A DNA stretch of 11,997 nucleotides from an uncultured Erysipelotrichaceae bacterium. Its GTDB lineage: Bacteria > Bacillota_I > Bacilli_A > Erysipelotrichales > Erysipelotrichaceae. Each line of letters opens with the position of its first letter. Positions within the stretch are counted from its first letter, which is position 1. The stretch spans positions 1 to 11,997 of the forward strand of contig CALBGK010000032.1 of the NCBI GenBank assembly GCA_937893115.1, in the 5' to 3' direction. The notes under the pieces are model-generated. The model saw only the letters and a list, made by a program, of their open reading frames with translations, was not told where the DNA came from and did no database searches. Of the stretch, positions 1-11,443 are shown piece after piece. A program made the translations under genes and the position numbers.

Positions 1-121
1 CCAGAGTCATCACTATAGGTCCAAAGGCAGGCAGAGAACCAAGTGGGGTAAAACAGAAGATAAATTCTATTCCTAATAGAATAGCGAATAAAGTCATTTT
101 TTTAATTTTCATATTTCTCAT
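1..121 (-). CDS. ECF transporter S component, N-terminal fragment
   Basis: Only the first 40 codons lie in the window; the gene runs off the left edge. The peptide starts MRNMKIKKMTLFAILLG and continues through a hydrophobic stretch to FTPLGSLPAFGP. This is the pattern of the first membrane helix and following loop in ECF-type vitamin/micronutrient transporter S components, which bind a substrate in the membrane and dock on a shared energising module. The substrate cannot be told from this fragment. The start at 121 overlaps the stop of the upstream gene as ATGA, which favours coupled translation; a second in-frame ATG at 112 is possible. No strong ribosome binding site is visible, which fits coupling. 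Family identity is inferred from a short stretch, so confidence is moderate. Confidence 0.6.
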   Translation of the reverse strand, partial: MRNMKIKKMTLFAILLGIEFIFCFTPLGSLPAFGPIVMTL

Positions 122-735
122 CTCAATAAAGTATCATTATCATTTCTAGGTGTCATATCTGCTTCATAGAAGTCGAGTGTTTCTTCTTTGGAGCGCTTAC
201 TGGCTATGACCCAAGCGTGGTAGGCAGTAGATAGATTAGACTTCTTTTGACGGTCAATCTTAGAAGGTAAAAGATAGCTGAATAGACAACCGAAGGCTGC
301 ACCGATTGCGGTATCGATGATTCTGGCTATGGTATAGGCAACATAATTGTCTTCAGGTTGTGTATACATGACGACAAAATATATTACGATGGCTGGCTGT
401 ATAGCGCCGCTTGATCCTAACAAGGTATTTAAATAGAGAAGCACCACAACGCCGATGGCCATATATATCTCAGGCAAGATATTTAATGGATTGGTCCAAT
501 AGATGTGGTACAAAGCCAAGATTACCAAACCACCAGTCAGTGTTCCTATGCTTCGATTAAAACCGTGACGAAAGCCTTCGTTGAATTGACTACCGCAAGA
601 AAAGGCAGCGCCTATGAGGGCAAAACAAGGATTACGTTTTAATAGATAGATGTAGATGATGCCTAAGATGAGGCATGCCAAGGATGTCTTAAGAGTTCTT
701 AGCCCTATTTTTGGTATAGATTTCCTTTTGTTCAT
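118..735 (-). CDS. FUSC / aromatic acid exporter-like (ArAE_1, DUF939 type) membrane protein, short form
   Basis: A 205-residue integral membrane protein. The N-terminus IGLRTLKTSLACLILG, followed by FALIGAAFSCGSQFNEGF and a G-rich RSIGTLTGGL stretch, is typical of the membrane half of ArAE_1/FUSC proteins, which include efflux proteins for aromatic acids. About six hydrophobic segments are visible between residues 15 and 160. The tail after residue 160 is polar and cytoplasmic in character. Many family members are longer and carry a C-terminal soluble domain that is absent here, so this is a membrane-only version. The start at 735 has an AAGGAA ribosome binding site eight bases upstream. The stop overlaps the start of the ECF S-component gene, so the two are probably co-transcribed. 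The transported compound is unknown. Confidence 0.7.
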   Translation of the reverse strand: MNKRKSIPKIGLRTLKTSLACLILGIIYIYLLKRNPCFALIGAAFSCGSQFNEGFRHGFNRSIGTLTGGLVILALYHIYWTNPLNILPEIYMAIGVVVLLYLNTLLGSSGAIQPAIVIYFVVMYTQPEDNYVAYTIARIIDTAIGAAFGCLFSYLLPSKIDRQKKSNLSTAYHAWVIASKRSKEETLDFYEADMTPRNDNDTLLR

Positions 736-3603: not shown

Positions 3604-5442
3604 ATGAGAATAAGTAATGGAAATTTAATTATTGAAAAGATAGAAGAGAATTATCATATCATTTTAGATGAACATCTCTATGAAGCTGATTTAAATCATC
3701 CATCAGCTATTAAAGTGGGTGAAGACATCATCCCTTTTAGTAGTCCTAGATATACAAGAATTATTAATTATAAAGACCATGAAGCGATAGAGACATATTA
3801 TGAAAATACGGCTGATACGAGTTTATGTTTAAAGACATTAGTATATATTGGCGATGATAATAAGGTCGAGTTTAGCTTTAATGTGCTTCGAGATGATGAA
3901 AGAGTGAGTGAGATATTATTTCCTAATGCCTTTAAGAATTTAAGCAGAGATGGTTATACTTATTTGCCTTATGGGCAGGGACTATATATTCCTAATGAAT
4001 ATGATTATGAATATAAAGATTTACATTTTGATGGCCAATTTGGAAGTTCAGCAGCCTACATGGCCATGTATGGACAATATGATAATGGCTATGGTTATTT
4101 GACTATCGTCAATACTTATTGGGATACAAAGTATGTGATATATCATGAAAGTACTAAGTTAGGAACAGGCATTCAATTAAGACACCTGCCATCTCTTGGC
4201 AAATATGCCTATTTGCGAAAAGCTACCTATTATTTTGAAAAGAACTTAGATTTTAATAGGGGTGCTAAGATATATCGAGAATATGTCAAAGAAAAGGGCA
4301 TCTATAAGTCCTTAAAAGAAAAAAGAACCTTACTGCCTAGTATCGATAAGCTCATAGGTGCTTCCCTGATTCATTTTGGTATTAAGACACATATCAATGA
4401 AGATTCTAGATTTTATGATAAATATGATATGTCTAAAAATGATAAGCTAGTTGCTTTTAAAGAGCGTTTAAATGAGATTAAAAAGATTAGAAGTGACTAT
4501 GATATTAAACTGGCTTGTCATCTTGATGGCTGGACTCATAGGGGATATGATAATGGGTATCCTGATGTTTTACCGGTTAACGAAGAAGCTGGTGGAGCAA
4601 GTGATTTGTGCTTATTGGCTGATGAGTTTTTTAAAAATGATGAGATCTTCATCTTGCATGATCAATATCGCGACTACTATTTAGACAGTGATGATCACAG
4701 CGAAAATAATGCCCTAGTCTTAAAGGACAAGTCTCTTTTTGAACAGGCAATATGGGCAGGAGGAAGACAAAATTACTTATGTGCTAGCTTGGCAAAAGAC
4801 TATGTCAAACGCAATGTCGATGCCTTGCTAAGTCAAGATATCAAGCTTGGTGGCTATTATCTTGATGTCTTTACCTGTAATGAATTAGATGAATGTTATT
4901 CAGATAGACATCCTATGACTAGAAAAGAATGTGCTGAATATCGTAAAGATTGTCTGAGATATCTTTTAACTAAGAATATCCTAGCAGCCAGTGAAGAAGT
5001 GAGTGATTGGGCTAATGAAGTTTTAGTTTTCGCTCATTATGCTCCTTATGAATTCATGCTTAAGGATAAGGGTGCTAAGCGTATGGGAAAAGCCATCCCT
5101 TTATTTAATTTAGTCTACCACGACTCTCTTATCATCCCTTGGCCTATGGAAGTATATGATGAAGATTATATGTTATATGCATTGTTAAATGCTGGTATTC
5201 CTTATCTAATTAGAGAAGGAGCTTATCCTAATACTGATGGTTTTTTCAAATCTAAAGATATCAGTTTTGCTGAAAAGGTTAAAAGGTCTAAGATAGTAGC
5301 AGACTTACATAATAAACTTGCCTATAGAGAGATGTTGTCATATACATTCTTAGATGATGAAGGACAAAGAGCCATCTATGAAGGTGGTATAAATATTAAT
5401 ATTTGGCCTAAACTAAATAAATATGAAATTATTGAAGAATAA
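3604..5442 (+). CDS. putative intracellular glycoside hydrolase, GH101/DUF5696-like TIM barrel
   Basis: A 612-residue protein with no signal peptide or membrane segment, so probably cytoplasmic. The N-terminal ~220 residues look like a beta-sandwich, rich in alternating beta strands with many Tyr and Asp. From about 245 on there is a barrel-like region with HLDGWTHRGYDNGYPDVLP (306-324), HDQYRDYYLDSD (from 352), GGYYLDVFT with Asp421, and AASEEVSDW with Glu464/465. An Asp at a strand end in YLDVF followed some 43 residues later by a Glu is the retaining-glycosidase arrangement I know from GH101-type enzymes; the catalytic assignment is inferred. The substrate is unknown, possibly an oligosaccharide taken up by the cell. 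The ATG at 3604 has no ribosome binding site, and no alternative start is near. The gene follows the groESL terminator and has its own short terminator-like hairpin downstream. Confidence 0.6.
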   Translation: MRISNGNLIIEKIEENYHIILDEHLYEADLNHPSAIKVGEDIIPFSSPRYTRIINYKDHEAIETYYENTADTSLCLKTLVYIGDDNKVEFSFNVLRDDERVSEILFPNAFKNLSRDGYTYLPYGQGLYIPNEYDYEYKDLHFDGQFGSSAAYMAMYGQYDNGYGYLTIVNTYWDTKYVIYHESTKLGTGIQLRHLPSLGKYAYLRKATYYFEKNLDFNRGAKIYREYVKEKGIYKSLKEKRTLLPSIDKLIGASLIHFGIKTHINEDSRFYDKYDMSKNDKLVAFKERLNEIKKIRSDYDIKLACHLDGWTHRGYDNGYPDVLPVNEEAGGASDLCLLADEFFKNDEIFILHDQYRDYYLDSDDHSENNALVLKDKSLFEQAIWAGGRQNYLCASLAKDYVKRNVDALLSQDIKLGGYYLDVFTCNELDECYSDRHPMTRKECAEYRKDCLRYLLTKNILAASEEVSDWANEVLVFAHYAPYEFMLKDKGAKRMGKAIPLFNLVYHDSLIIPWPMEVYDEDYMLYALLNAGIPYLIREGAYPNTDGFFKSKDISFAEKVKRSKIVADLHNKLAYREMLSYTFLDDEGQRAIYEGGININIWPKLNKYEIIEE

Positions 5443-5587: not shown

Positions 5588-5840
5588 ATACACGAAAACG
5601 TTGAAGTGAAGTAGTAGGTAAAAACGATCGTGATAGAGAGGCTATGGTTGGTGGAAATAGCTACGTGACTTTTATTGAATTCCTCACGGAGTAGGGTATT
5701 TGAATTAGAAGTAGGATACCACGATTGACACCCGTTAAAGTGTTGTGGCCATGATGGTGGTCGCATGAGTCTAGTTTTTTACTAGAGAATAAAGGTGGTA
5801 CCGCGAGCAACAATCGCCCTTTGATTAGGGCGATTTTTTT
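5588..5840 (+). promoter_or_regulatory. T-box riboswitch leader, specifier UUC (Phe)
   Basis: A tRNA-sensing leader. The T-box core AAGGTGGTACCGCG (5792-5805) is present. The antiterminator can form by AAAGG (5791-5795) pairing with CCTTT (5818-5822), the seven-base bulge TGGTACC, and GCGA (5803-5806) pairing with TCGC (5814-5817). Stem I shows the AGAGAG and GGTTGGTG apical motifs (5634-5653). Around the specifier loop GTGA (5606-5609) pairs with TCAC (5684-5687) and GTAAAA (5618-5623) pairs with TTTTAT (5670-5675). This leaves AGTAGTAG opposite TGAA-TTC-C, so the specifier is TTC (5680-5682), phenylalanine. The bulge UGGU fits a tRNA with A73, as tRNA-Phe has. Uncharged tRNA-Phe is predicted to prevent termination and turn on the binding-protein gene that follows. 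Confidence 0.88.
5812..5840 (+). terminator. T-box-controlled terminator, Phe leader
   Basis: AATCGCCCT (5812-5820) pairs with AGGGCGATT (5827-5835) around a six-base loop, followed by a T run. Its 5' arm is the strand that also pairs with the T-box sequence in the antiterminator, so the two structures exclude each other. Confidence 0.92.
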
Positions 5841-5853
5841 ATGGAGGTGGAGT

Positions 5854-6837
5854 ATGAAGAAAGTTATTCTAATTCTATTAGCATTATTGATTATTACAGG
5901 ATGTAGTAGTGAAAATGTGGAAAGCAGTGATGATTCAACTATCAAGATTGGAGTCTTACAATTGATGGATCACGAATCATTAAATTCTGCCTATGAAGGA
6001 TTCAAAGACGCTTTAAAGGATAATGGTTATGATGAGACCAAAGTGAGCTTTGAATACCAAAATCCTAACAATGATAAGTCTGCATTAGCGACCATGGCTC
6101 AATTTTTAGTCAATCAAGAGTGTGAATTGATTTTAGCCATCGGTACAGGTGCTGCACAAGCTCTTCAACAGGAAACAGTTGATATTCCTATTCTAGGAAC
6201 AGCTATAACTGATTATGTCGATGTAGGTCTTGTAGCATCTAATGAAAATCCAGGGAGCAATATTTCCGGAAGTAGTGACTATGTAGATATGGCTATACAG
6301 ATGGATTTAATTGAAAGATTTATACCAAATGTTAAGACAGTTGGCTTGATTTATACTTCTAGTGAAGAAAATTCTATCATTCAAGCGGAAGCGATGAAGG
6401 AAGAATGTGCTAAAAGAGGTTGGACAGTTGTTGAAAAGACGATTTCAGATTTGACCATGGTCAATGATACGATGATGTCGTTTGTAGGTGAGATTGATGC
6501 CTTATATATTCCAACTGATAATCCTCTAGCTTCCTCTATGGCTAGTGTTGATATCGTCGCTAAAGAAAATAAGATACCAGTATTTGTCGGATGGGATTCT
6601 GGCGTTAGTGATGGAGCTTTAGCTTCTATCGGTATCAATTATTATGACTTAGGTTATAAGACTGGTGAAAATGCAGTAAAGATCTTAAATGGTGAAGTGA
6701 ATATCAGTGAAATGCCTGTATACTTCATGGATGGCGAAAGTGCTACTGTCTATTACAATAGTGAAACAGCTGAAAGTATAGAGATTGAGATTCCTGAGGA
6801 CATTTTGACAAAAGGATCTGATTTATCGCAAAAGTAG
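5854..6837 (+). CDS. ABC transporter substrate-binding lipoprotein (TrpX-like, ABC_sub_bind family), predicted phenylalanine binder
   Basis: A 327-residue lipoprotein: a hydrophobic signal ends in the lipobox ITGC with Cys17 as the lipid anchor, holding the protein at the outer face of the membrane. The mature part is a two-lobed type I periplasmic-binding fold of the ABC_sub_bind/TrpX family, with IKIGVLQLMDHESLN at the start of lobe one, FEYQNPNND, the YTSSEENS hinge-region motif and IPTDNPLASSMASVD. It is clearly paralogous to the second binding protein downstream. At the loop following IPVF it has GWDSGVSDG with Trp247, where the paralogue has GESNAVKNG, a plausible site of ligand discrimination. 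The ATG at 5854 follows GGAGGTGG; an in-frame TTG at 5821 lies within the terminator loop and is rejected. The Phe ligand is inferred from the T-box, not from the protein. Confidence 0.85.
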   Translation: MKKVILILLALLIITGCSSENVESSDDSTIKIGVLQLMDHESLNSAYEGFKDALKDNGYDETKVSFEYQNPNNDKSALATMAQFLVNQECELILAIGTGAAQALQQETVDIPILGTAITDYVDVGLVASNENPGSNISGSSDYVDMAIQMDLIERFIPNVKTVGLIYTSSEENSIIQAEAMKEECAKRGWTVVEKTISDLTMVNDTMMSFVGEIDALYIPTDNPLASSMASVDIVAKENKIPVFVGWDSGVSDGALASIGINYYDLGYKTGENAVKILNGEVNISEMPVYFMDGESATVYYNSETAESIEIEIPEDILTKGSDLSQK

Positions 6838-6866
6838 TTGACAAATAAAAAACCTTTAAATATCAT
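6838..6866 (+). promoter_or_regulatory. internal promoter of the second T-box leader
   Basis: A consensus TTGACA (6838-6843) begins at the base after the stop codon of the first binding protein, and TATCAT (6861-6866) follows at 17 bases. Transcription would start near 6873. This gives the second binding protein, permease and ATPase a promoter of their own. Confidence 0.75.
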
Positions 6867-6872
6867 TATTTC

Positions 6873-7136
6873 ATAGAAGAAATAAAAAAACGCCGTGAAC
6901 TGAAATAGTAATCTTTGAGCCTCAACTTGAAGCGAGACTGTGGCTGGTGAAAACAGTTAGTGAGTCAGGATGAATACATCAGCTAGTGGGACGCTTGAAT
7001 TATTAGTAGAGTGTCACGATTAACACCCGTTAAAGTGTTGGGCCATGATGGTGGCTTGCTGAGGCTGGTTTAGTAATAAACTGGTAAATAAAGGTGGTAA
7101 CGCGATAACTCGTCCTTTTGTGGGACGAGTTTTTTA
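6873..7136 (+). promoter_or_regulatory. T-box riboswitch leader, specifier UAC (Tyr)
   Basis: This leader has the same architecture as the first one. The T-box core AAGGTGGTAACGCG is at 7091-7104. The antiterminator forms from AAAGG (7090-7094) with CCTTT (7114-7118), the bulge TGGTAAC, and GCGA (7102-7105) with TCGT (7110-7113). At the base of the specifier loop CTGA (6900-6903) pairs with TCAG (6979-6982), and above it TCTT (6912-6915) pairs with AGGA (6967-6970). This leaves AATAGTAA opposite TGAA-TAC-A, so the specifier is TAC (6975-6977), tyrosine. The bulge UGGU matches A73 of tRNA-Tyr. Apical motifs GCGAGAC and GGCTGGTGAAAA are present. Uncharged tRNA-Tyr is predicted to permit transcription of the second binding protein, permease and ATPase. 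Confidence 0.88.
7107..7136 (+). terminator. T-box-controlled terminator, Tyr leader
   Basis: AACTCGTCC (7107-7115) pairs with GGACGAGTT (7123-7131) around a seven-base loop, followed by a T run. The 5' arm is shared with the antiterminator. Confidence 0.92.
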
Positions 7137-7162: not shown

Positions 7163-8149
7163 ATGAAAAAACTAATTACACTTATTTTAACTCTTGGATT
7201 ACTTGTAGCTTGTAGTTCAAATGATCCTCAAACAACTGATACTGGAGAAACTATGAAACATGTCGGTATTCTTCAACTGATGACCCACGATGCTCTAGAT
7301 GAATCAAGAAGAGGATTCATTGATGCCTTGAGCGATGGAGGCTATGTCGAAGGAGAGAACTTAGTTATCGATTACCAGAATCCTGAAGGTGATGCCAGCA
7401 ATCTTACAACGATGGCTGATTCTTTAATCGCTGGTAATCAAGATTTAATCTTAGCAATTGCGACAACACCTGTTCAGGCCTTACAAAATATCAATGTTGA
7501 TACACCAATTCTAGCTACAGCTGTAACCGACTTTGTCGAAGCGGGACTTGTAGAATCAAATGAAAATCCTGGTGGCTTAATCGCTGGTGTCAGTGATGGA
7601 TGCCCGATGAATGAACAACTAGATCTTTTATTAGAAGCTGTTCCAGATATTCAAAGTATTGGTATCATCTACACTTCATCTGAACCAAATTCAGAAATTC
7701 AAGCTAATCAGATGGTTGCCGAATGTGAAGAAAGAGGTATTGAAGCAGTTGTGGAAACAGTATCTGATAAGACGATGATAGATGATACATTACAAAGTTT
7801 TGTCGGTAAAATCGATGCCCTATATGTGCCTACTGACAACAATATCGCCTCAGCTATGGCCAGTGTTGATATCTTCGCTACTGAACATCAGTTGCCAGTA
7901 CTGTGCGGTGAAAGCAATGCAGTAAAAAATGGTGGTCTATTATCGCTTGGTGTTGATTACTACAAGATCGGCTACCAAACAGGAGAAATGGCAGTAGCTA
8001 TTCTAAATGGTGAAAAGACTATCAGCGATTTCCAAGTAGAATTCCAATCAGATATTCAAGTATATTACAATTCAAATACAGCTAGTAAGATAGGCATTAG
8101 TCTTCCTGATTCAATTATCGAAAGAGGAGAGGATGTCGCTAGCAATTAA
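7163..8149 (+). CDS. ABC transporter substrate-binding lipoprotein (TrpX-like, ABC_sub_bind family), predicted tyrosine binder
   Basis: A 328-residue lipoprotein with lipobox LVAC and anchor Cys17. It shares the fold and most motifs with the first binding protein: VGILQLMTHDALDES, DYQNPEGDAS, YTSSEPNSEIQANQM, VPTDNNIASAMASVD and DYYKIGYQTGEMAVAILNG. The loop after LPVL reads CGESNAVKNGG, closer to what I remember of TrpX proteins than the first paralogue. The start at 7163 follows GGGAGG five bases upstream; an in-frame TTG at 7118 lies inside the terminator hairpin and is rejected. The gene sits behind the UAC T-box and is followed after 21 bases by the permease. Tyrosine as ligand is inferred from the T-box. 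Cross-binding of other aromatic amino acids is possible. Confidence 0.86.
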   Translation: MKKLITLILTLGLLVACSSNDPQTTDTGETMKHVGILQLMTHDALDESRRGFIDALSDGGYVEGENLVIDYQNPEGDASNLTTMADSLIAGNQDLILAIATTPVQALQNINVDTPILATAVTDFVEAGLVESNENPGGLIAGVSDGCPMNEQLDLLLEAVPDIQSIGIIYTSSEPNSEIQANQMVAECEERGIEAVVETVSDKTMIDDTLQSFVGKIDALYVPTDNNIASAMASVDIFATEHQLPVLCGESNAVKNGGLLSLGVDYYKIGYQTGEMAVAILNGEKTISDFQVEFQSDIQVYYNSNTASKIGISLPDSIIERGEDVASN

Positions 8150-8170: not shown

Positions 8171-9082
8171 ATGTCGTCTTCAATATTAATTTCAGCTATA
8201 TCGCAAGGATTGCTATGGGCCATCTTAGCCATAGGCATCCATGTAACTTATCGTATCTTAGATATTTCCGACTTAACTAGTGAAAGTTCATTCACATTGG
8301 GTGCAGCGGTTACCGCATCAGCTATTGTGAATGGTGTTCCCCCACTTGTAGCTATCATCATGGCGACTATATCTGGCTCTTTAGCGGGTATGGTCACTGG
8401 CCTATTGCATACTAAATTACATATTCCTAGTCTATTGTCTGGTATCTTATCGATGACTGGTCTATATTCCATCAATTTAAGAATCATGGGTAAAGCCAAT
8501 ATTCCTCTCAATATGCATGATACTATTTTGACCAATATCAAAGACTTATTAGGACTGGCTAAAGATAGAGATGCCGCTATCATTCTAGGTATTATCGTAT
8601 GTATTATTGTCATCTTAGTACTAGTGTGGTTTTTCAATACTGAATTTGGCTTTGGTATTGTGGCTACCGGTAGTAACGACAAGATGATTAGAGCTAATGG
8701 TATTAACTCTGATATCACAAAGATTGCCGGACTAATGTTAGCGAATGCGCTAATCGCATTAAGTGGCTCTCTAGTATGTCAATATAATGGTTATGCCGAT
8801 GTCGGACAGGGTATAGGTGCTATTGTCATCGGACTAGCTTCCGTTATTATCGGTGAAGTTATCTTCAAAAGAAAGAATCTATTATTGAGTTTAGTAGGTA
8901 TAGTTTTTGGTTCTATTATTTATCGTCTGATTGTCGCTTTAGTAATCAATAGTGACTATGTATCAGCTAATGATATGAAATTGTTTACTGCTATTATCGT
9001 TGCTGCGGCACTTTATTTAGCCAATATTAATTTCAAGAAGAAAGGAGCTAAAAAAGATGTTAGAGATAAAGCACATATCTAA
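8171..9082 (+). CDS. ABC transporter permease, TrpY-like (BPD_transp_2 / LivH-type)
   Basis: A 303-residue polytopic membrane protein forming the translocation pore of the importer. It starts with SQGLLWAILAIGIHVTYRILDISDLT, read here as SQGLLWAILAIGIHV then TYRILDISDLT, followed by about eight to nine hydrophobic helices. The segment FGFGIVATGSNDKMIRANG leading to ITKIAGLMLANALIALSG is the cytoplasmic coupling region of LivH/LivM-type permeases that touches the ATPase. A GAAAGG ribosome binding site lies eight bases before the ATG. The 3' end overlaps the ATPase gene by 26 bases, indicating tight coupling. There is only one permease gene, so it presumably works as a homodimer and serves both binding proteins. 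Confidence 0.9.
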   Translation: MSSSILISAISQGLLWAILAIGIHVTYRILDISDLTSESSFTLGAAVTASAIVNGVPPLVAIIMATISGSLAGMVTGLLHTKLHIPSLLSGILSMTGLYSINLRIMGKANIPLNMHDTILTNIKDLLGLAKDRDAAIILGIIVCIIVILVLVWFFNTEFGFGIVATGSNDKMIRANGINSDITKIAGLMLANALIALSGSLVCQYNGYADVGQGIGAIVIGLASVIIGEVIFKRKNLLLSLVGIVFGSIIYRLIVALVINSDYVSANDMKLFTAIIVAAALYLANINFKKKGAKKDVRDKAHI

Positions 9083-9788
9083 GACCTTTAATGAAGGTAC
9101 GGTTATAGGTGGTAATGGTGCCGGTAAATCTACCCTTTTAAATCTCATATCGGGAACATATATGATAGATAGCGGAAATATAATATTAAATGGAGACGAC
9201 ATTTCTAAACAGAAAGAATATAAAAGAGCAGCGAGAATAGGTAGAGTCTTCCAAGATCCAATGACAGGGACTTGTGCAGATTTGACTATTGAAGAAAATT
9301 TCTCTATCGCTAAAAGAAGAGGTAAATTAAGAACTTTAAGGATGGGTCTAACTTCCAAAGAGAAGGAAGAATATCGCGACCTATTAAAATCATTAAATCT
9401 AGGCCTAGAAAATCGTTTGACTAGTAAGGTTGGTTTACTCTCTGGTGGTCAAAGACAAGCTCTGACACTATTGATGGCAACCTTAGTTAAGCCAGAACTC
9501 TTACTATTGGATGAGCATACAGCAGCTCTAGATCCTAAGACTGCAAGTCGTGTCTTGTCACTCACTGATGAGTTGGTGCGCAAAGATAATCTTACGACCT
9601 TGATGATTACTCATAATATGAAGGATGCCATCAAATACGGCAATAGATTAATTATGATGTCAGAAGGTAAGATAATATTAGATGTTCGTGATGAAGAAAA
9701 AGAAAAACTAACTGTCAGTGACTTACTATCAATATTTGAAAAAGAGACCGGCTTTGAAATGGCTAACGATAGAGCTCTGTTATCATAA
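9057..9788 (+). CDS. ABC transporter ATPase, TrpZ-like, with apparent internal deletion before Walker A
   Basis: A 243-residue ATP-hydrolysing subunit on the cytoplasmic side of the importer. Visible motifs: Walker A GGNGAGKST (18-26), Q-loop with Gln66, signature LSGGQ (128-132), Walker B LLLLDE with Glu153, D-loop ending at Asp159 and the switch His186. The N-terminus reads MLEIKHISKTFNEGTV and then goes directly into IGGNGAGKS. In the family, as I know it, about 20-25 residues containing two beta strands stand between these, so they appear to be missing here without loss of frame. All catalytic motifs remain, but the nucleotide-binding subdomain is shortened and activity is doubtful. AAAGGAG lies upstream of the ATG, inside the permease gene. 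Confidence 0.88.
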   Translation: MLEIKHISKTFNEGTVIGGNGAGKSTLLNLISGTYMIDSGNIILNGDDISKQKEYKRAARIGRVFQDPMTGTCADLTIEENFSIAKRRGKLRTLRMGLTSKEKEEYRDLLKSLNLGLENRLTSKVGLLSGGQRQALTLLMATLVKPELLLLDEHTAALDPKTASRVLSLTDELVRKDNLTTLMITHNMKDAIKYGNRLIMMSEGKIILDVRDEEKEKLTVSDLLSIFEKETGFEMANDRALLS

Positions 9789-9855: not shown

Positions 9856-10659
9856 TTATAGTTCATAGTCTCTTGATTTATATGCAACTGATGATAAATA
9901 GATCAATATTAATGTAAACAACACAATAGTAATGAAAGAAATATACGTTTCATTAGATAAATTAAGTGCATTTGCTGGCGATAAAAGTTCAAACGGACTA
10001 AAATATTTTAAAAATTTTCCTTTATCTTCCAATATTTTTGCCAAATATCCAAGCATATAACTAAGCATTACAATGCCACTGCCTAAACCATTTGATGAGT
10101 ATTTGCCACCTATAGAAGATATCGCTAAACCAATAGATAAAAATATAAATGGGACAGTACCAGTAATTTTAATTATTTTGACCATATCTGTCAGTTTAAA
10201 TGTATCGTCTCCTACTAAAAAACCAAATATTATACCCGCTAATGATGTACTTAATACAACTATCAAAACAGCTATTAAAGACATCGAAACTTTTGCATAA
10301 AAAATTTGCTTTCTGGTTACAGCTAATGAATAAAGATATTCAATGGTTTTATTTTGTTTTTCTTTTCTAAGCGTTTGAACACCTAATGTCACCGCATAAA
10401 TAGAAATGATAATAATCAATATATTAAATATCATTCCAAAGAAAGTCACGTAATTGCTCATTTGTGATATGTCTTCAACCCCCATTAATTGTAGATATTC
10501 TTTTGGCAACATTTCAAATTTTACTTGCGCCATTTCTTGCATAGTAGAAAAGAAAAACATATACATCGACATAATTCCAAATAGCACTGCAGACCATATT
10601 GAAATAGACTTAATATTTGTCTTTAATTGAAAAACAAACAAAGTTTTAAAATTATTCAT
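9856..10659 (-). CDS. ABC-2 type exporter permease
   Basis: A 267-residue membrane protein starting MNNFKTLFVFQLKTNIKSIS, with six predicted helices. Between helices two and three it has TLRKEKQNKTIEYLYSLAVTRKQIF, read here as TLRKEKQNKTIEYLY then SLAVTRKQIF. This is the cytoplasmic coupling motif of permeases paired with BcrA/NatA-like ATPases. The substrate is unknown. I place the start at 10659 because AAGGAG sits seven bases upstream, although the reading frame is open far upstream into the damaged ATPase gene. The AAG GAG TAA end of the intact-frame ATPase doubles as this ribosome binding site, so the two genes were translationally coupled. Without a working ATPase the protein may be non-functional. 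Confidence 0.78.
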   Translation of the reverse strand: MNNFKTLFVFQLKTNIKSISIWSAVLFGIMSMYMFFFSTMQEMAQVKFEMLPKEYLQLMGVEDISQMSNYVTFFGMIFNILIIIISIYAVTLGVQTLRKEKQNKTIEYLYSLAVTRKQIFYAKVSMSLIAVLIVVLSTSLAGIIFGFLVGDDTFKLTDMVKIIKITGTVPFIFLSIGLAISSIGGKYSSNGLGSGIVMLSYMLGYLAKILEDKGKFLKYFSPFELLSPANALNLSNETYISFITIVLFTLILIYLSSVAYKSRDYEL

Positions 10660-10663
10660 ATGT

Positions 10664-11443
10664 TTACTCCTTATAATATTTAATGAATTCATCTTCCACC
10701 GTTGCATATTTAATACATTGATATCATCATTATTTTCAAATTTCTTTTCTACACCATCTTTAGTTTTATATGAAACAATTTGTTTGAAATTGGTCATTAT
10801 ATTATTCATATCTAGGTCATCTACAATTTTCCCGTCTTTTATAATCAGCACTCTGTCACAATATTTTTGAATTTCGCTCAAATTGTGAGAAGACAAGAAT
10901 ATAGTCATGCCTTCTTTTTTTAAATTTAAAAGTAGTTCAAAAAACTTGATTTGCATAAGCGGATCTAGCCCGCTGGTAGGTTCATCAAGGATTAATAATT
11001 CTGTATCTTTTAGCAGTGCTTGTATTATAGACACTTTTTTCTTGTTTCCTAAACTTAAATCTTTAATTTTTTTATTTTTATCAAGTTCGAAATACTTGCA
11101 AAGTACATCAATTTTTTCTTTAGATGTATTGGAAATATTGCAAGAAAGATTAAAAATATCATCAGAAGTTAAATTATCATAGAAACATGAGTCACTAGGC
11201 ATGTATCCTAAAAATTTTTTTATTTTGCTACTTTGATTTTTTGAATCCAAATTTTTTTATTTTAATAAGACCTGCGGTTGGCTTTAAAAAATCTAATATA
11301 CATCTTATGGTGGTTGTTTTTCCAGCACCGTTTTTCCCGACAAATCCAACGATGTTGCCTTTCTTGACATTGAATGATATATTTTCTACAGCAGTAAATT
11401 TTCCATATCTTTTTGTCAGATTATTAACCTCAATCATATTCAT
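10664..11443 (-). pseudogene. ABC exporter ATPase gene broken by two frame lesions
   Basis: The 5' part (from 11443) encodes MIEVNNLTKRYGKFTAV, Walker A GKNGAGKTTT and LKPTAGLIKI, then hits an A7 tract (11252-11258) and stops at TAG. Reading one A fewer gives GLIKIKNLDSKNQSSK and restores a frame with GYMPSDSCFYDNLT, signature-like LSLGN, Walker B LLILDEPTSGLD and the switch His in LSSHNLSE. Near 10705-10725 the frame breaks again: the expected C-terminus ATVEDEFIKYYKE followed by TAA (10666-10664) is in another frame, and the open frame instead runs on into the permease. The signature LSLGN differs from LSGGQ, which some of these exporters tolerate. The start at 11443 has AGGAGA seven bases upstream. 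A sequencing error could explain the first lesion, less easily both. Confidence 0.75.

Follow-up and report, generated by a model that had tools for sequence, protein, structure and literature searches.

Two T-box leaders with phenylalanine and tyrosine specifiers in a predicted twin-cassette importer locus of an uncultured Erysipelotrichaceae bacterium

Why should a locus with the genes for one ATP-binding cassette (ABC) importer hold two T-box leaders that read different codons? The question is raised by a window of 11,997 nt (the whole stretch of DNA analysed, to which coordinates refer unless another locus is named) on contig CALBGK010000032.1 of an uncultured Erysipelotrichaceae bacterium. 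Here open reading frames and matches to RF00230 and Pfam place, in this order and all on the + strand, leader 1, the gene for substrate-binding protein 1 (SBP1), leader 2, the gene for SBP2, a permease gene and an ATPase gene. A first-pass annotation had proposed that the two leaders carry a phenylalanine (Phe) and a tyrosine (Tyr) specifier within a single importer operon. We consider it quite likely that the locus encodes a twin-cassette importer, in which a Phe leader with SBP1 and a Tyr leader with SBP2 would serve one permease and ATPase.

The leaders and their specifiers

Both leaders lie above the RF00230 gathering score of 93, leader 1 (5592..5824) with 137.4 bits (E 3.3e-31) and leader 2 (6886..7120) with 115.8 bits (E 1.2e-25), so the importer locus does hold two T-boxes, as the first-pass annotation claimed; they share 75.0% identity over 224 aligned bases. 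TTC (5680-5682) and TAC (6975-6977) share one alignment column flanked by two helices, and 13 of the 16 pairs predicted for Stem I show at least one change on both sides among 15 leaders, which agrees with the earlier placement of both codons at the same point of the specifier loop between common helices. The RF00230 alignment thus gives UUC (Phe) for leader 1 and UAC (Tyr) for leader 2, the two specifiers proposed before, and no other codons were seen in these columns. The leaders of the cognate synthetases (relatives are cited by genome, G, and locus, L) give the same calibration: the pheS leaders in 3/3 genomes searched (G001, G002 and G004; pheS found via PF01409), which score 78.0-88.4 bits, below the RF00230 cut-off, hold GAA-UUC at the specifier position of leader 1, and the tyrS leader L025 has GAA-UAC in the specifier column. 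A second tyrS leader, L027, aligns poorly, with UAC seemingly in a shorter loop.

The tRNAs of relatives fit these codons. Among the 30 loci read of the 76 tRNA matches listed for G001 and G002, tRNA-Phe(GAA) and tRNA-Tyr(GTA) are present, both with ACCA ends, and the four tRNA-Ser sequences end in GCCA. The UUC and UAC of the window are complementary to the anticodons of the former two, and the UGGU bulges of leader 1 (5796..5799) and leader 2 (7095..7098) are complementary to their ACCA ends. Furthermore, the terminator scan and folding revealed an intrinsic terminator in each leader, at 5812..5835 (-14.5 kcal/mol, z -5.2) and 7107..7131 (-15.2 kcal/mol, z -5.7), both of which overlap the 3' part of the respective RF00230 match, the arrangement of a competing terminator. 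The bulge base was also considered as a discriminator against tryptophan (Trp) leaders and was rejected, as some Trp leaders show UGGC and others UGGU. The two leaders of L008 (5284-5534 and 6649-6901 of that locus) have UGGA instead of UGGU.

Across loci, specifiers were read from the columns of a Stem I model, R1, built on 15 leaders of the importer family and therefore biased toward them; its specifier column is 1-2 bases off in the leaders of ValS-like L017, MetS-like L034 and TyrS L027. R1 was applied to no other amino acids' specifier calls, and leaders L051, L122 and L138 were left unread.

The binding proteins and their pockets

SBP1 (5854..6837) and SBP2 (7163..8149) are lipoproteins of family PF04392 (ABC_sub_bind; 238.2 and 238.1 bits, cut-off 25.9) with 50.5% identity to each other, predicted to bind Phe and Tyr, respectively. 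Both match PDB 6HNI, the protein CD0873 (E 1.2e-68 and 3.5e-65). CD0873 specifically binds Tyr among 20 amino acids, and its Glu263 forms a hydrogen bond with the tyrosine hydroxyl; VC_1101, which binds Phe, and SP1069, which binds Trp, both have Ala instead, and Tyr279 of CD0873 is Gln in SP1069 (PMC6816091). With the numbering fixed by the distance between Glu263 and Tyr279 and by the Val-Pro pair in the alignment of SBP1 with 6HNI, this position is Trp247 in SBP1 (codon 6592-6594) and Glu250 in SBP2 (codon 7910-7912), so that only SBP2 has the residue of the Tyr binder, and the position of Tyr279 is Tyr in both. The first-pass annotation had named a Trp preference of both proteins as one outcome that would overturn it, and their sequences do not point that way: they score 298.6 and 304.2 bits with the NCBIfam TrpX equivalog NF041285, below its cut-off of 390, and their pocket residues are W and E. 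The sequence of SBP1 may also be compatible with tryptophan binding.

Leader and pocket change together in the clade of the window. Among the 30 SBPs of this clade whose leader was read (alignment columns with over 6 gaps excluded), specifier and residue are concordant in 30/30, in both gene orders: Glu occupies the Glu263 column in 17/17 SBPs behind a UAC leader, and W (3), C (5) or V (5) in all 13 behind a UUC leader. Moreover, a structure-free scan found that 4 of 322 columns, at SBP1 positions 245, 247, 249 and 265, fully separate the Tyr from the Phe SBPs; they fall inside a 21-residue pocket-loop stretch, with a probability of 0.0008 for four random columns to lie within 21 positions. 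Column 247, that of Glu263, is the only one of the 322 that is invariant in the Tyr SBPs and has a residue never present in the Phe SBPs. These sequences are related, so the 30 concordant cases are not 30 events and represent about four independent contrasts (the window's group, the G181 group, G007 and L008).

Transcription units

The annotation of a single operon calls for refinement. A promoter-like site, P2 (6838..6866; TTGACA-17-TATCAT, 11/12), lies 5' of leader 2, directly after the SBP1 gene, and thus two nested transcription units appear more likely than one simple operon. The corresponding site 5' of leader 1, P1 (5553..5581; TTGACT-17-TAAAGT, 9/12), is weak. The promoter scan is not significant on its own, with 6 sites in the region and 6.2 expected from shuffles; in the second cassettes of relatives, TTGACA with a spacer of 17-18 bases is found 5' of the second leader in 14/14 loci tested, where 0 to 18 of 500 shuffles reached an equal score. 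The terminator scan of the region revealed no candidate terminator in the interval from SBP1 to leader 2, and therefore transcripts from P1 must pass leader 2 too.

Twin loci among relatives

At least 13 of the loci read have both leaders, nine with the Phe leader first (the window, L001-L005, L081, L181 and L182) and four with the Tyr leader first (L008, L186, L250 and L251). L185 also has both SBPs, its contig starting too near SBP1 to hold a first leader, and the permease and ATPase genes lie 3' of the second SBP in all 14 of these loci. PF04392 was matched in 219 of 294 genomes of the order and 71 of 392 of the phylum, and SBP2 in 192 of 272 of the family; retrieval covered part of these matches, and the count of twin operons is therefore a minimum. 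From one of the analyses the duplicate loci L011, L012, L019, L021, L022, L023, L029, L030 and L033 were left out. Some relatives have one SBP instead of two, with a Tyr leader: L006, L252, L253 and L254. In G007, the SBP with the Tyr leader stands beside a permease on one contig and that with the Phe leader on another (L256:2007-3277), where no permease or ATPase homologue was found in the 7.5 kb fetched. This unlinked SBP has Val at the Glu263 position behind its Phe T-box, and the promoter-like site upstream is weak (82 of 500 shuffles).

The permease (8171..9082; PF02653) appears to be common to SBP1 and SBP2, and the ATPase gene (9057..9788; PF00005) follows it. One strong permease homologue was found in 9 of the 15 genomes searched (G001-G006, G008, G159 and G171), the close relative G001 among them, the next match reaching at most 46.6 bits. 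A permease search of genome contigs gave 8 loci, six labelled Erysipelotrichaceae, one Firmicutes and one Clostridiales.

In 7 of 11 relatives searched (G001, G002, G005, G006, G007, G159 and G171; genome completeness not stated), neither chorismate synthase nor prephenate dehydratase was matched, and these seven are likely auxotrophic, judging by their gene content. Both enzymes were matched in G003 and G004, only chorismate synthase in G008 and only prephenate dehydratase in G181; the twin layout is thus also present where the pathway enzymes are. Separately, L071, L180 and L187 (G235, G065 and G133) each have three tandem PF04392 SBPs, for which the Stem I model detected no leader, and the leader of L142 (UUC) is close to those of L134 and L141 (UAC), all before close Glu-type SBPs, as in a recent one-base switch of the specifier.

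Proposed mechanism

Each cassette would consist of a promoter, a transcriptional T-box leader and an SBP gene, the second adding the shared permease and ATPase. On Phe starvation, uncharged tRNA-Phe (GAA) would bind UUC of leader 1 and pair through its ACCA end with UGGU, formation of the terminator at 5812-5835 would be prevented, and SBP1, the putative phenylalanine catcher, would be made. Uncharged tRNA-Tyr (GUA) would act likewise at leader 2, giving more SBP2, permease and ATPase. We infer that SBP1 and SBP2 would dock on the same permease and compete for it, in which case the cargo would be chosen by the relative amounts of the two proteins. With P1 transcripts having to pass leader 2, the shared core would be gated by Tyr here and by Phe in the loci of reversed order.

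Alternative explanations

Several observations weigh against the twin-cassette importer with a Phe and a Tyr arm, and some of them favour a different account. At the RNA level, a purine directly 3' of the specifier is usual, not absolute (PMC7583486), and it is present in leader 2 (A after UAC) but not in leader 1, where C follows UUC; here the Phe reading of leader 1 is at its weakest. This C also makes the next frame read UCC (Ser), and the TBDB rules permit both specifier frame shifts and G:U wobble at the bulge (PMC7778990), so that UGGU of leader 1 could take the GCCA end of tRNA-Ser. We nevertheless regard it as very improbable that leader 1 senses tRNA-Ser or some other tRNA in place of tRNA-Phe: the serS leaders L010 and L035 (GAAA-UCC and GAAA-UCU) have a loop one base longer and UGGC bulges, the pheS leaders share both GAA-UUC and UGGU with leader 1, and the gene downstream encodes an SBP of the aromatic amino acid type. 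In addition, P1 is poorly conserved in alignments of relatives. Relative to L001, the ATPase gene lacks an in-frame segment of 63 bp (21 residues) that is bounded at either end by ACGGT and lies directly 5' of what we take to be the Walker A motif; the gap may be a real deletion or an assembly error. If real, it could mean that the importer does not work in this strain and that the leaders are relics there. This seems quite unlikely, as the other genes are open and near those of L001 (permease 99%, SBPs 96-97%), the window could hold an assembly error, and the deletion is absent from L001 and, by eye, from L007 and L008.

At the protein level, all 12 SBPs behind UUC leaders outside the clade have Glu at the Glu263 column, as do the 6 behind UAC leaders (from a survey of 162 distinct SBPs, of which 66 have a leader, read in 63). 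The 12 rule out the residue as a general code for the amino acid of the leader. Even twin operons, those of G075 and G096, have Glu in both SBPs, so the protein lends no support to a Phe/Tyr split there. All 24 SBPs behind UGG leaders have Ala in this column and Tyr, not the Gln of SP1069, at the second position, and therefore the loss of Glu cannot separate Phe from Trp. A further, more distant permease is present in G181, G163 and G201 (37-39% identity), in G075 and G096 (41-43%) and in G007 (37-43% over these six genomes). Could SBP1 and SBP2 then bind Phe and Tyr about equally, with the leaders as an OR-gate that raises one dual-specificity importer whenever either amino acid is scarce, and the pocket differences as drift? 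Glu-type SBPs behind either leader (12 UUC and 6 UAC) fit this account, as do the near-identical leaders that flip between UUC and UAC (L142 vs L134 and L141). In C. difficile, uptake of Tyr as well as of Phe was lower when a related pair of SBP and ATPase was lost (PMC5951980); this would account for operons with one SBP and such a codon-flipping leader. Against it, CD0873 is Tyr-specific (PMC6816091), and in the clade the pocket column tracks the leader in all 30 SBPs whichever cassette comes first; we judge the OR-gate unlikely and retain the twin-cassette importer with separate Phe and Tyr arms.

Origin of the pairs

How the pairs came into being was examined with SBP trees (a larger one of 105 of the 162 SBPs with Ala-site SBPs reduced to three, one of 51 SBPs for the approximately unbiased (AU) tests and one of 40) and with a tree of 39 importer and 5 synthetase leaders, duplicates dropped. 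According to the SBP trees, each Phe SBP is most closely related to its Tyr partner in G181/G163/G201 (100/99), in G007 (100/100), in G096 (91/90; 100/97 in the larger tree) and in G075 (95/90; 100/98 in the larger tree), and in the group of the window the Phe and the Tyr SBPs form two sets. A single origin of the ten non-Glu SBPs (nine of them behind a Phe leader and one whose leader is lost at a contig end) as one clade was rejected (AU p 7.35e-5). The trees thus favour several separate Phe/Tyr duplications. Considering TTGACA 5' of the second leader in 14/14 loci, the copied unit was probably promoter, leader and SBP together. The leader tree does not support pheS or tyrS as the source of the importer leaders; in it the synthetase leaders fall outside those of the importers, on long branches that also meet there.

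The support for separate duplications, each split into a Phe and a Tyr copy, is uneven when the leader tree and the pockets of G075 and G096 are considered. The leader tree is weaker than the SBP trees, with 16 of 41 branches starred; its G181 pair has values of 92/60, the G075 pair does not resolve, and the G096 leaders are not mutual closest kin. The main rival history, which concerns the past of the pairs and not their mechanism, is one ancient duplication of the SBP into Phe and Tyr copies, followed by gene conversion that spared the leader codon and the pocket. In its favour, the pairs are adjacent in 13 loci; the AU test (p 0.124 against keeping the pair together) does not settle the placement of the L008 SBPs, while the L008 leaders are sisters (100/98); and the Tyr leader of G096 groups with that of G239 (96/87), unlike the G096 SBPs. 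On the other side stand the rejected single clade of non-Glu SBPs, the G007 pair, sisters at 100/100 yet on two contigs, and the variation of the site residue by lineage (W or C vs V), and we hold this history to be possible, if doubtful. We lean slightly toward repeated, independent duplication of an evolvable promoter/T-box/SBP cassette, whose copies would have been split by one specifier base (UAC/UUC), the Phe copy losing Glu in at least three lineages (the window's group, the G181 group and G007), with two tRNA sensors setting the cargo of one channel by way of the amounts of the SBPs that compete for it.

Relation to known systems

Two paralogous SBPs of different preference that share one permease are found in argT-hisJQMP of Salmonella and livJ/livK-livHMGF of E. 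coli, which belong to other SBP families and have no T-box and no amino acid sensor for each SBP.

The trpXYZ locus of Streptococcus suis encodes the same type of transporter behind a transcriptional T-box for the amino acid it imports, but it has one UGG leader and one SBP (PMC9382623), where the window has a UUC and a UAC leader, each with its own SBP. CD0873 of C. difficile (6HNI), VC_1101 (3LKV, Phe) and SP1069 (3LFT, Trp) belong to the same fold family by sequence; SBP2 carries the Tyr-specific Glu of CD0873, whereas SBP1 has Trp there, and the accessible text describes no twin-leader layout for the three (PMC6816091). Phe and Tyr members of PF04392, VC_1101 and CD0873, are thus already known (PMC6816091), so the split into Phe and Tyr, which the first-pass annotation had called unusual, is so only in giving each SBP on a shared permease its own leader. 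Tandem or double T-boxes are likewise known, from trp, branched-chain amino acid and thrS genes (PMC12452182) and his transporters (PMC9413887), and the two of C. difficile hom are presumed to read different tRNAs (PMC11477304). They resemble the window in placing two T-boxes, in hom possibly for two tRNAs, on one gene set, but are described as standing in series before the same gene, whereas in the window the leaders are separated by an SBP gene and a promoter-like site, and each precedes a paralogue of its own. A Tyr T-box of tyrS in the Bacillus cereus group was copied and switched to Phe for a neurotransmitter:sodium symporter (NSS) family transporter (PMC2494555), a precedent for a duplicated transporter T-box going from Tyr to Phe. 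There a single transporter gene has a tyrS-related leader (PMC2494555), whereas here leader and SBP were probably copied as one unit, and the importer leaders stand apart from those of tyrS and pheS. The unusual part is one leader for each SBP on a shared permease; no description of such a layout was seen in the open-licence literature searched, with subscription papers mostly outside it, so that an earlier mention is possible.

T-box specifiers are used to guess the cargo of unknown transporters, and the protein itself rarely allows a check of the guess. The clade in which the pocket varies with the leader, whichever gene order is present, therefore offers a natural test of this inference, and the SBPs outside it, where leaders switch between Phe and Tyr and Glu stays, show where it fails. 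Furthermore, the locus offers a testable model of a shared ABC channel that would be tuned by sensing each cargo and raising one capture protein.

Other genes in the window

The window that holds the importer also encodes, at 118-735 (-), a protein like FUSC_2/ArAE_1, which are Pfam families of aromatic acid exporters. A 612-residue protein at 3604-5442 has matches to DUF6259, GH129 and DUF5696, and to GH101 below the cut-off. At 9856-11250 (-), the late part of an ABC_tran domain (profile 53-137 of 137) is followed in a single frame by an ABC-2 membrane domain, as in a fused or truncated exporter.

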